In this document: positions 19,810 through 50,326 of the stretch, one piece after another
How positions within the stretch are numbered: position 1 is the first letter of the stretch
Layout of the letters: each line of letters begins with the position of its first letter
Assembly: GCA_012728075.1 (NCBI GenBank)
Contig: JAAYFV010000166.1
Coordinates: forward strand, 1-64,000
From: Tissierellia bacterium
GTDB lineage: Bacteria; Bacillota; Clostridia; Tissierellales; Tepidimicrobiaceae
Direction: 5' to 3'
DNA: 64,000 nucleotides
The notes under the pieces: model-generated
Seen by the model: the letters and a program-made list of their open reading frames with translations, nothing else
Database searches by the model: none
Told to the model about the DNA's origin: nothing
Position numbers and translations under genes: made by a program

Positions 19810-21633
19810 TTACCCCAAAACTTCCTTATTCTTCTCCTCTATAAACTGATTGGTATACAAATTATAATAATAACCCTTTTCTTTAATTAATTCCCTATGA
19901 TTACCCTCTTCAATAATTTTTCCATCTTTAATTACTAAAATCCTATCGGCATTTTTTATAGTAGATAATCTATGGGCTATTACAAAACTGGTTTTACCTT
20001 CTAGTACATTTTCTATGGTTTTTTGAATTATCATTTCTGTTTCTGTATCTATGGAGGATGTGGCTTCATCTAGTACAAATATTTTAGGGTTTTTGACGAT
20101 AGCCCTAGCAAAGGAGATCAGCTGTTTTTGGCCAGTGGATAATAAATTTCCTCCTTCGCCTACATTGGTATCATAGCCTTTTTCCATTTTCATAATAAAA
20201 TTATGACTATTGACTAATTTACTAGCTTTTATAATTTCTAAATCTGTGGCATCTAAATGACCATACTTTATATTGTCTTTTATGGTGCCACTAAATAAAT
20301 GGGGAGCTTGTAGCACATAACCTAGATTATCGTGAATCCAAATTTGAGGCATGGTTTTATAATCTATGCCATCTATTAATATTTCACCAGAGGTAGGTTC
20401 ATAAAATCTACAAAGTAAATTTACTATGGTGGATTTTCCTGAGCCAGTTTCTCCAACTAGAGCTATGGTTTCACCAGGTTTTACCTTAAGATTAAAATTC
20501 TCCAAAACCTTTTCTCCATTTTTATAGGCGAAATCTACATTTCTAAATTCAATTTCTCCCTTAATTTCTGGCCAATTTTCTTTTTTGGGGGTAAAGAAGT
20601 CCCCATATTCATTTACTACATCTTCACTATCTATAATATCTGGTACTTCATTTATAAGAGAAAATACTCTTTCAGCTGAGGCCTGTGCCCCTTGAATTTC
20701 TGCAAATACCACTGCTAATTGTCTTACAGGTTCAAAAAACTGAGCAGTATAAGCTATAAAGGCTGCCATAGTACCATAGCTTATGGTGCCTTGTATTACA
20801 TCTTTTCCACCAGAATTTAAAACTAAGGCAGTGCCAATGCTACCTAATACTAAAATTATAGGGAAATATAGAGAAGAAACAATAGTGGCCCTTATGGACT
20901 TTTGTTTCATTTCTTCAGTGATTTCCTTAAATTCCTCTAAATTTATTTCTTCTCGAACTAAAGTTTTAGTAGTCATGGCACCAGATATATCTTCATTATA
21001 AGCAGCAGTTATTTTAGAATTAACATTTCTAACTTCCCTTTGAGCCTTTAATATTTTATTTTGAAAATATGCTGAGGCTATGGCCAAAGGGGGTACTACT
21101 GTTAATGCTATTAAGGCTAATTTAGCATTAAGCCTAAACATGGCAATTACAACTGCCAACATCATGGCAAGCCCCCAGGCAAAGTCCACTATGCCCCAGG
21201 ATAGGGTTTCAGATATACCATTTATATCAGAGGTCATTCTAGCCATTAACCAACCTACAGCTTTTTCATCATAATAGGATAAGGGGAGGATTTGTAATTT
21301 TTCAAATCCTTTTTTTCTAATATCATAAGATACATTAGTTTCCACTTTTCCACCCATAGCTAAAAATAAATATACATTTATACCCTGGAATGCTATAACT
21401 ATAAAAAATAATTTTATAAATTTATTTAATCCTATTAGATTTTTTTCTACTATAAAATTGTCAATGGCATATTTAGTAAATAGGGGAAATACAGAGTCCA
21501 AAGCACCTACAAATACCATAATTATAGCTAGTAGAATAAAATCTCTTTTGTGATTCTTAACTAATTCTAAGAAATTTCTCCATATAGTAATATCAATTTT
21601 CTCATTTTCCAATACTACCACCTCACTAGGCAT
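19810..21633 (-). CDS. Heterodimeric ABC multidrug exporter subunit (BmrD/LmrD/YheH-like)
   Basis: ABC_membrane plus NBD: GETGSGKSTIV, divergent signature LSTGQKQ, Walker B VLDEATSSIDTET. Confidence 0.85.
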   Translation of the reverse strand: MPSEVVVLENEKIDITIWRNFLELVKNHKRDFILLAIIMVFVGALDSVFPLFTKYAIDNFIVEKNLIGLNKFIKLFFIVIAFQGINVYLFLAMGGKVETNVSYDIRKKGFEKLQILPLSYYDEKAVGWLMARMTSDINGISETLSWGIVDFAWGLAMMLAVVIAMFRLNAKLALIALTVVPPLAIASAYFQNKILKAQREVRNVNSKITAAYNEDISGAMTTKTLVREEINLEEFKEITEEMKQKSIRATIVSSLYFPIILVLGSIGTALVLNSGGKDVIQGTISYGTMAAFIAYTAQFFEPVRQLAVVFAEIQGAQASAERVFSLINEVPDIIDSEDVVNEYGDFFTPKKENWPEIKGEIEFRNVDFAYKNGEKVLENFNLKVKPGETIALVGETGSGKSTIVNLLCRFYEPTSGEILIDGIDYKTMPQIWIHDNLGYVLQAPHLFSGTIKDNIKYGHLDATDLEIIKASKLVNSHNFIMKMEKGYDTNVGEGGNLLSTGQKQLISFARAIVKNPKIFVLDEATSSIDTETEMIIQKTIENVLEGKTSFVIAHRLSTIKNADRILVIKDGKIIEEGNHRELIKEKGYYYNLYTNQFIEEKNKEVLG

Positions 21634-23431
21634 GTAATTTTATATCTTCTTCTAAATCCTTCATAGAATTTTGAATTTCATATAATCTTTGATACAATCC
21701 TTTTTCATTTATTAATTTTTCATGATTACCTCTTTGTATTATTCTTCCATTGTCTAAAACTATAATTTCATCGGCCTCAGATACTGTAGATATTCTATGG
21801 GATATTATTATAGTCGTAGATTTATTTTTTCTATTATTTAGGGCTTTCCTAATGGATATATCAGTTTCTGTATCTACAGCAGATAGAGAATCATCAAAGA
21901 CCACAATAGGGCAATCATTTATAATGGTTCTAGCAATGGCAACCCTTTGCTTTTGTCCACCAGATAGGGAAACTCCTCTTTCTCCCACATAGGTATCATA
22001 TCCTTTATCAAAGGATTTAATATCCTGATGGATACTGGCAATTTTAGCAGATTCATAAACCTTTTTATCTTGAATACTAGGATTAGCTAATTTTATATTA
22101 TCTCTAATGGTTTTGGCATATAGGAAAGGTTCTTGTAATACAATTCCTATATTTTTTCTAACCCAAGCCTTATCAATATCTTTTAATTCTTTTCCATCTA
22201 TTAATATGGAACCCCTATTATAATCATAAAGTCTTGCTAATAAATAGACTAAAGAAGATTTGCCAGAACCTGTTGGACCAATTATAGCCACTGTACTACC
22301 AGCCTTTACTGAAAAGGAAATATTGTCAATTACTGGAGTATTCTTTTCATATTCAAAATAAACATTTTCAAATTCAATATTACCTTTAATTTCTGGCTTT
22401 TCATTGTTTCCATTTAAAATTTCTATATTCTCATTAAAAATTTCATCAATTCTTCCTATGGATACTATGGCTTTTCCCATATCTGTTAAAGTTCTTCCCA
22501 TTTGTCTAATAGGCCACAATAACATATTTACATATGTAGAAAAGGCCATTACAGTACCTAGAGATATTTCTCCAGCTACAGCCCAAATACTTCCAAAGAC
22601 TATAGTTAATCCAATTTGTATAAAACAAATAAAATCAGAAGCTCCCCAATATAGAGCTAAATCTTGAATTAATTTATAGGTTTTATCCCTATAGTCTTTA
22701 TTTTTTTCATCAAACTTTTCTATTTCATATTTTTGATTAGCACAGGCCTTTACTACTCTTACACCTGTAAGATTTTCTTGTAGCACTGTAGTTAATTCTG
22801 CCTCTGCTTCATCAGAAGCCTCAAAGGCCTTTTTTACTTTAGAAAAAAATATAAATGCAAATATGAAAATTATAGGCATAGTAGCCATGGAAACTAAAGT
22901 CATTTTTACATTAAGTTTAAACATAGTATAAGATACAAATCCCAACATAAATAGTGAACCAGCCACTTCTACCAATTGTATAGACAAAAATCTTTTTATA
23001 GTATTTACATCTGAAGTACACCTTTGAATTAAATCTCCCGTCTCTGCTTTTACATGGTATTCATAAGGGAGTCTTTGAATTTGATCATATAGGGAATCCC
23101 TAATGTTTTTTGCAGTATTTTCAGCTGTTTTACTTGCTAAGGTATTTCTAAAATAAAGCAATATACCTCTTAAAATTGCAATAAATACTAATAGTACACC
23201 AATAATCCAAAGATTTTTTCTTAGATAAGCTCTACCTCCTATATATTGAATTAATCTTTCTAAAAAGTTAGAACCTATAGGTTCACTGCCAATAATAGAG
23301 TCTATAGTAGTTCTAATGATAAGAGGTGATACTATAGTGACCATCTGAGAAAGGATGATACATATCATAGCTAATACATAAATTCCTTTGTATCCGGTCA
23401 TAAACTTAAACAGTTTTTTAATTTCTTTCAT
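21626..23431 (-). CDS. Heterodimeric ABC multidrug exporter subunit (BmrC/LmrC/YheI-like)
   Basis: GPTGSGKSSLV, canonical LSGGQKQR, degenerate Walker B VVFDDSLSAVDTET; overlaps partner gene by 8 bp. Confidence 0.85.
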   Translation of the reverse strand: MKEIKKLFKFMTGYKGIYVLAMICIILSQMVTIVSPLIIRTTIDSIIGSEPIGSNFLERLIQYIGGRAYLRKNLWIIGVLLVFIAILRGILLYFRNTLASKTAENTAKNIRDSLYDQIQRLPYEYHVKAETGDLIQRCTSDVNTIKRFLSIQLVEVAGSLFMLGFVSYTMFKLNVKMTLVSMATMPIIFIFAFIFFSKVKKAFEASDEAEAELTTVLQENLTGVRVVKACANQKYEIEKFDEKNKDYRDKTYKLIQDLALYWGASDFICFIQIGLTIVFGSIWAVAGEISLGTVMAFSTYVNMLLWPIRQMGRTLTDMGKAIVSIGRIDEIFNENIEILNGNNEKPEIKGNIEFENVYFEYEKNTPVIDNISFSVKAGSTVAIIGPTGSGKSSLVYLLARLYDYNRGSILIDGKELKDIDKAWVRKNIGIVLQEPFLYAKTIRDNIKLANPSIQDKKVYESAKIASIHQDIKSFDKGYDTYVGERGVSLSGGQKQRVAIARTIINDCPIVVFDDSLSAVDTETDISIRKALNNRKNKSTTIIISHRISTVSEADEIIVLDNGRIIQRGNHEKLINEKGLYQRLYEIQNSMKDLEEDIKLHA

Positions 23432-23456
23432 TTTATTTCCTCCTCATTTTGAATAT

Positions 23457-23500
23457 AAAAAAACCATAAGATGTGACAAAAAGTCTACAATCCTACGGTT
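23457..23500 (-). terminator. Second leader terminator (T2) upstream of ABC exporter
   Basis: Minus strand AACCGTAGGATTGTAGAC-ttttt-GTCACATCTTATGGTT followed by a seven-T run; G-U pairs and bulges. Confidence 0.65.
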
Positions 23501-23566
23501 TTTATACCATGATAGCATTATAGGCATAGCTATCCTTTGGCATATAAATAAAGCAATTATTAGAAT

Positions 23567-23597
23567 AAAAAAACCATAGGCAAGCACGCCTATGGTT
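23567..23597 (-). terminator. First leader terminator (T1)
   Basis: Minus strand perfect 10-bp stem AACCATAGGC-gtgctt-GCCTATGGTT followed by T-run. Confidence 0.85.
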
Positions 23598-23614
23598 ATA
23601 TAGACAAAAATTAA

Positions 23615-23695
23615 TTATACTAAGGTATTCATAGGTCGTGCCATTGTTTTTATATAGTTTTCTTTAGCTTGTAATAGATTTGTTATTATGATCAT
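23615..23695 (-). CDS. Unannotated 26-aa leader peptide MIIITNLLQAKENYIKTMARPMNTLV of ABC exporter operon
   Basis: Minus strand AAGGAGG RBS 8 nt before ATG; preceded by TTGTAT-N16-TATAAT; followed by T1 and T2. Not in ORF track because of its length. Confidence 0.7.
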   Translation of the reverse strand: MIIITNLLQAKENYIKTMARPMNTLV

Positions 23696-23798
23696 CTTCA
23701 CGACCTCCTTACTAAACTATCAATATGATTATATTATATATGGTATTTACAAAAATACAACAATATTCATACTTTTGTAATACAATTGTAATAATTAT

Positions 23799-36942: not shown

Positions 36943-36998
36943 GTTTTTCATTTTAACCAATAATATAGTTAACTATATTATTGGTTAAAATGAAAAAC
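36943..36998. repeat. Core of palindrome axis (centre 36970/36971)
   Basis: TTTTTCATTTTAACCAATAATATAGTT|AACTATATTATTGGTTAAAATGAAAAA, no spacer. Confidence 0.95.
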
Positions 36999-50245: not shown

Positions 50246-50326
50246 ATGATCATAATAACAAATCTATTACAAGCTAAAGAAAACTATATAAAAACAATGG
50301 CACGACCTATGAATACCTTAGTATAA
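50246..50326 (+). CDS. Leader peptide MIIITNLLQAKENYIKTMARPMNTLV (mirror copy)
   Basis: Mirror of 23615-23695; promoter TTGTAT 50181-50186 / TATAAT 50203-50208, RBS AAGGAGG 50231-50237. Confidence 0.7.
   Translation: MIIITNLLQAKENYIKTMARPMNTLV

Follow-up and report, generated by a model that had tools for sequence, protein, structure and literature searches.

The window analysed here, a stretch of 64,000 nucleotides from a contig of a Tissierellia bacterium (JAAYFV010000166.1), carries on its minus strand the genes for the two halves of an ABC exporter, preceded by a short leader open reading frame (ORF) and two terminators, T1 and T2. Within the leader region we distinguish six segments, numbered in the order of transcription. 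The features of the locus are as follows.

23733-23760, minus strand: promoter TTGTAT-N16-TATAAT (by sequence; -10 region kept in relatives)
23710-23704, minus strand: leader Shine-Dalgarno (SD) sequence AAGGAGG (by sequence)
23699-23706, minus strand: segment 1, AGGUCGUG, overlapping and extending past the leader SD
23615-23695 including the stop codon, minus strand: leader ORF of 26 codons, MIIITNLLQAKENYIKTMARPMNTLV* (ATG at 23695, stop codon at 23617-23615)
23630-23640, minus strand: segment 2, CACGACCUAUG, the anti-SD, codons 19-22 (ARPM); partner of segment 1 or 3
23585-23594, minus strand: segment 3, CAUAGGCGUG, the T1 5' arm and loop GUG; partner of segment 2 (ON) or 4 (OFF)
23572-23597, minus strand: terminator T1, 10-bp perfect stem (U-tract at 23571-23565)
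23566-23581, minus strand: segment 4, the T1 3' arm and U-tract; can pair with the T2 5' arm
23459-23503, minus strand: terminator T2, in which segments 5, AAAAACCGUAGG, and 6, UCUUAUGGUUUUU, flank a conserved inner stem
21626-23431, minus strand: exporter half 1, 601 aa, ABC_membrane and ABC_tran domains, Walker-B D, signature LSGGQ
19810-21633, minus strand: exporter half 2, 607 aa, ABC_membrane and ABC_tran domains, Walker-B E, signature LSTGQ; 8-nt overlap with half 1

The leader ORF, both terminators and the exporter lie where the original prediction had placed them, and the promoter, the SD sequence, the perfect 10-bp stem of T1 and the position of T2 were likewise found as predicted. 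The -10 hexamer TATAAT (23738-23733) is strong, while the -35-like hexamer TTGTAT (23760-23755), at a spacing of 16 nt, is weak and was missing from the promoter-scan list because it shares only three of six bases with the consensus. Promoter-like sites in the region did not exceed the number expected by chance; terminator-like sites numbered four, compared to 0.6 expected. The stem of T2 is imperfect, with G-U pairs and a bulged inner stem, and its U-tract ends approximately 25 nt 5' of the exporter ATG (23431), with the exporter ribosome binding site (RBS) in between. The inner part of T2, GAUUGUAGACUUUUUGUCACAUC (23492-23470), for which a bulged inner stem is possible, is conserved among near relatives beyond what a terminator needs.

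The motifs read from the two exporter halves yield one degenerate ATP site (D; LSTGQ) and one canonical site, which is the usual arrangement in heterodimeric ABC exporters. The domains and motifs bear out the predicted target of the leader. In NCBIfam no model named the exporter, all matches being far below the cut-offs.

An identical copy of the leader, overlooked in the original prediction, is present at 50246-50323 on the plus strand. The contig (73,940 bp) is, however, identical to its reverse complement: comparison of 54,060 window positions gave 0 mismatches, the palindrome covering window positions 9941-64000 with its centre near 36,970. Genes to the right of the centre are mirror copies, the second leader and exporter, at 50-54 kb, represent the same locus, and gene counts from this contig are therefore doubled. 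We consider the palindrome most likely an assembly artefact and rejected the copy at 50,246 as independent evidence.

Segment 1, AGGUCGUG (23706-23699), is perfectly complementary to CACGACCU (23640-23633), a stretch close to the 3' end of the leader ORF that codes for ARP. Extended by AUG, this second segment is also complementary to segment 3, CAUAGGCGUG, i.e. to the T1 5' arm together with the loop GUG, and segment 4 is complementary to segment 5 over 15 nt (87%). The segments can thus combine either as 1:2, 3:4 and 5:6, with both terminators formed (OFF), or as 2:3 and 4:5, with neither terminator formed and read-through (ON). The energies of these pairings are balanced in the window (1:2, -14.5; 2:3, -17.0; T1, -16.0; 4:5, -15.8; T2, -18.7 kcal/mol), and, judged by both sequence and energy, the leader ORF and a terminator arm can form a mutually exclusive antiterminator pairing. 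A perfect 8-bp anti-SD arose in 5 of 20,000 dinucleotide shuffles of the leader, and the SD/anti-SD pattern did not occur in 100 shuffles of the whole window. The original prediction had noticed none of these alternatives, neither the SD:anti-SD pairing nor the pairing with the T1 loop nor the cross-pairing of T1 with T2. When viral contigs were scanned for the SD/anti-SD pattern, many candidates were found among the matches listed, and these carry no weight here.

The original prediction had called for a check on conservation in relatives, and leader and terminators proved to be conserved, by the relatives' sequences and by covariation. A peptide search of 61 relatives added four genomes in which the leader lies 5' of this exporter. 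We then used a covariance model spanning the SD to T1 (R1) to search 250 genomes of the order. Matches were obtained in many families of the order, the best with E-values of 1e-33 to 1e-8, and nearly all lay directly 5' of the orthologous exporter; two of the loci belong to Tissierellia metagenome assemblies. In 39 aligned leaders, helix 1:2 had 97.7% of its cells paired, and 4 of its 8 pairs had changed on both sides; its covariation score was reached in 0 of 500 shuffles. For the T1 stem, the corresponding values were 97.4% and 7 of 9 pairs. Pairing 2:3 was found in 94.3% of cells for its core and 86.5% overall, with little covariation beyond complementarity. The T1 loop GUG, though outside the terminator stem, is kept in the nearest leaders.

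A refined model (R2; threshold E<=1e-3) was applied to class and phylum genomes, and matched 30 of 392 and 15 of 399, respectively, including the window's own genome and a few members of the order. A minority of the weak R2 matches were terminators only, and weak matches with terminators lacking an SD leader were not counted as members (loci L068, L075, L083, L114, L117, L124, L126 and L130). No Rfam 15 family matched at its gathering threshold; at E<=10, all matches were below threshold.

Since R1 and R2 both contain helix 1:2, most of these matches were picked with a bias for that helix. We therefore assembled a set of exporter orthologues from protein search alone (71 of 120 genomes at E<=1e-120), took the upstream DNA and scanned it for any SD-led ORF of 18-60 codons; p-values for the complementarity of the SD segment were determined against dinucleotide shuffles and corrected for the number of candidate ORFs. 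An SD-led leader was present in 45 of the 47 genomes outside family f19. Complementarity between the SD segment and the late ORF was significant (p<=0.05) in 39 of these 45 leaders (median z -3.7), and 2:3 complementarity in 35 of 45. T2 was detected at 37 of the 45 loci, 34 of which showed 4:5 complementarity at p<=0.05. The divergent exporters of f19 (n = 12, 43-48% identity) had no leader except for genome G220, whose SD GGUGAAAAG is matched by CUUUUUGCC; genome G196, placed in f19 by the table, encodes an exporter that is 58% identical and carries the leader. Although the combined p-values are very small, these genomes are relatives of one another and not independent, and for this reason we put the weight on compensatory changes. 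Helix 1:2 occurs as GGUCGUG:CACGACC, GGUAGGG:CCCUGCC, GGUAAGG:CCUUGCC, GGUCAUG:CAUGGCC, GGCCGUG:CACGGCC, GGAGGUU:AACCUCC, GGAGGA:UCCUCC and GGUGAAAAG:CUUUUUGCC, and the cores of T1 and T2 vary in step (CCAUAGG, CCGUAGG, CCACAGG, CCGCAGG). Together, these data establish the anatomy of the leader, its complementarities, their conservation and covariation, and their thermodynamic consistency.

In a single-contig genome of the same genus, a deletion (near 1899740-1899835 of G001:C1; L002/L041) joins the T2 U-tract to approximately codon 27 of exporter half 1. It removes the RBS, start codon and N-terminus of half 1 and leaves the leader intact; the gene is either a pseudogene or has acquired a new start.

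Similar leaders were found 5' of other genes, for which domains were tested on one example each. The genes encode GNAT-domain proteins with a long C-terminal part (L072, L109, L119, L122, L123, L127 and L133), EamA transporters (L103, L105 and L112), an MFS transporter (L121), an ABC ATPase (L128), a GyrI-like protein (L110) and, following several terminators and a small ORF, SpoU rRNA methylases (L077 and L078). Judged by its predicted functions, this gene set fits with resistance to translation-targeting compounds. The C-terminal part of the GNAT family has no assigned domain (473 aa tested, L123), and its open frames extend up to 677 aa. This protein family recurs behind the attenuator in several families; it is possibly an unrecognised drug-modifying or protective enzyme. 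At L067/L086, L077, L078 and L088, three or four tandem terminators with a common CGCAG/CUGCG-type core precede the next gene.

To evaluate the effect of ribosome position, the transcript up to the T1 loop was folded repeatedly, with the ribosome footprint on each codon in turn; masking of segment 1 depends on the footprint assumed (-15 to +15). With the P-site on codons 1-4, the probability of 2:3 was near 1 in nearly all of 36 leaders, and with the ribosome over segment 2 it was about 0. At mid-leader positions the outcome differed between leaders, ribosomes at approximately codons 12-15 also freeing segment 2 in many of them. Folded with no ribosome, the truncated transcript of the window thermodynamically prefers 2:3 over 1:2, so that an OFF state in the absence of translation would rely on 1:2 forming first during transcription, or else on a ribosome that completes the ORF.

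Based on these data, we propose that the leader is probably a cis-acting, ribosome-sensing transcription attenuator of a heterodimeric multidrug-type ABC exporter, operated by a six-segment switch with early arrest as the trigger. An SD-led ORF, predicted to be translated, stands ahead of an intrinsic terminator, and this arrangement is conserved in relatives. If ribosomes translate freely or are absent, segment 2 would be covered by the finishing ribosome or paired with segment 1; segment 3 would then be free, T1 (3:4) would form, and any read-through would meet T2 (5:6). A ribosome arrested at the start codon or the first few codons would instead cover segment 1, and segment 2 would capture segment 3 along with the T1 loop, the pairing of loop GUG with CAC of segment 2 hindering nucleation of T1. 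With nucleation blocked, the 3' arm of T1 would be taken up by the 5' arm of T2 (4:5), neither terminator would work and the exporter would be made. Such arrest may be caused by drugs that target the peptidyl transferase centre or initiation, or by generally slow early elongation. We infer that these pairings form in cells and that transcription terminates at T1 and T2; early arrest is the presumed trigger, drugs that provoke it the predicted inducers, and drugs the presumed substrates of the exporter. Induction by early-arrest drugs is predicted on the precedent of E. coli toiL (PMC12121999). T2 may have originated by duplication of T1, in which case pairing 4:5 could simply have come along with it. 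The original reading of the leader ORF as part of a transcription attenuator is thus well supported by the conserved leader, T1 and T2 and by covariation, and was incomplete in that it missed the SD-based switch.

The leader peptide bears directly on the other ways in which such a locus could work. The original prediction had made conservation of the peptide a test as well, and the leader and terminators are indeed kept in relatives; the peptide sequence, however, drifts beyond close relatives, and peptide conservation as the signal was rejected beyond these. When 29 leader peptides are aligned, every column varies and the N-terminus drifts. Just two residues recur, RP, and these are the anti-SD RNA read in one frame; elsewhere it is read as TTY, RDL or HDL (STTYDRF, YRDLCII or GHDLC), all three frames occurring among the leaders. 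Drift and three-frame reading speak for the sensing of ribosome position and against an arrest specific to the peptide. It is thus unlikely that, as in ermC or ermK, a ribosome with a bound macrolide, lincosamide or phenicol is halted at one particular codon by a peptide motif; neither RLR nor another known arrest motif was present in the leader peptides compared. In favour of such drug-specific arrest, the nearer families repeatedly have an MIII start and a KEN(L/F/Y)I stretch, and the ribosomes at codons 12-15 that free segment 2 would suit it too. The KEN(L/F/Y)I-like stretch lies at approximately codons 11-15 in families f1, f2, f5 and f13, and is maintained through synonymous changes in the nearer families. 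The three consecutive Ile codons of the window's leader, and the 1:2/2:3/3:4 logic shared with trp, would also suit an attenuator of the trp/his type that senses charged tRNA, e.g. Ile scarcity at codons 2-4. This we regard as extremely improbable, given that most members have IRI, MKL, LKI or MMN in place of the Ile run and that the genes downstream are exporters, GNAT, MFS and EamA genes rather than biosynthetic ones.

Two further explanations dispense with the ribosome as the signal. The leader could be a small protein gene followed by ordinary insulating terminators, the exporter being transcribed from a promoter of its own without regulation; a promoter-like site, TTGTCA-16-TATATT (23479-23452), does overlap T2, but such sites are about as frequent by chance. 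Insulation would account neither for alternative pairings that are conserved with compensatory changes and for the common T1/T2 cores, nor for leaders that, in many families, immediately precede this exporter, and we hold it to be very improbable. The unusual conservation of the inner T2 loop GAUUGUAGACUUUUUGUCACAUC in the nearest relatives would suit a ligand-binding riboswitch or a protein-binding attenuator that uses the same terminators. The conserved elements are, however, the SD and its complement around an open ORF, with no conserved aptamer-like core, and the Rfam result likewise speaks against it, making this the least probable of the explanations considered.

Returning to the switch driven by early ribosome arrest, we think it somewhat better than an even chance that it represents a new and widespread class of attenuator in Clostridia-like bacteria, in which the leader SD serves as an arm of the switch, the signal is an arrested ribosome sitting on that SD and not the peptide, the tandem terminators are interchangeable, and orthologous exporter genes are joined with GNAT, EamA, MFS, ABC and possibly rRNA-methylase genes in a translation-stress resistance regulon. 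The proposal provides a testable sequence rule: the SD of a leader complements the end of its own ORF, and this complement also complements the next terminator. With this rule, genes that probably respond to antibiotics can be picked out in Clostridia, cultured or not, at places where annotation shows nothing. If true, the proposal would tie an otherwise unassigned exporter family and a large family of GNAT-containing proteins to translation stress, and it points to a general way of sensing arrest at the start codon or soon after that needs no stalling peptide.

Literature searches, which covered the open-access literature, did not find a description of this attenuator; several known systems resemble parts of it. 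As proposed for our leader, the trp attenuator of E. coli switches among 1:2, 2:3 and 3:4 according to where the ribosome stands; there, however, the signal is scarcity of a codon-specific tRNA, segment 1 lies within the peptide and there is one terminator, while the leader described here differs in signal, location of segment 1 and number of terminators. The kinship implied by the original term bmrB-like could not be upheld. The bmrB-bmrCD system shares a translated leader, a heterodimeric multidrug ABC exporter and a terminator/antiterminator pair, with induction by ribosome-targeting drugs shown there and predicted here (PMC4191407). The single terminator of bmrB, however, lies within a 53-codon ORF (PMC4191407), whereas our leader has two, both located past the stop codon, and its SD is an arm of the switch through the SD:anti-SD helix; there is no evidence of common descent. 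Among Clostridia, arrest on a short upstream ORF (uORF) also controls termination ahead of the resistance gene cplR of Clostridioides difficile, where, in difference to our leader, the uORF has 3 codons (MR[I/M]), the terminator hairpin sequesters the SD of the main gene and the target is an ABC-F protein (PMC10201436). Naville and Gautheret predicted attenuators (ABC-leaders) ahead of ABC transporter operons, including a Lactobacillus multidrug exporter; these came from other taxa and from terminator/antiterminator prediction, and the parts of the report consulted describe no SD-based leader (PMC2965389).

ermK (ermD class) combines a short leader with two adjacent intrinsic terminators (PMC4335068, citing Kwak 1991), a tandem arrangement also found here; it differs by its MTHxMRLR-type macrolide arrest peptide and its rRNA methylase target (PMC4335068), in place of which our locus has a leader with no RLR-type or other arrest motif and an exporter. 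In vmlR of Bacillus subtilis, a ribosome arrested at initiation by retapamulin or lincomycin blocks the first hairpin (PMC9226507), and in our computation a P-site on codons 1-4 would similarly free the antiterminator strand. Both have a series of anti-antiterminator, antiterminator and intrinsic terminator, with a leader ORF ahead of an antibiotic-resistance gene, a putative one in our case (PMC9226507). In vmlR, a tripeptide uORF lies inside the first hairpin, the SD is single-stranded and upstream, and one terminator is combined with a hairpin that sequesters the vmlR SD (PMC9226507). Here, the ORF has 26 codons and the SD is inside the helix as its first arm, with its partner approximately 20 codons away near the ORF end, two cross-pairing terminators and an ABC exporter as the target. 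Of these systems, vmlR is the closest mechanistic parallel to the proposed switch, with ermK alongside for its two terminators.
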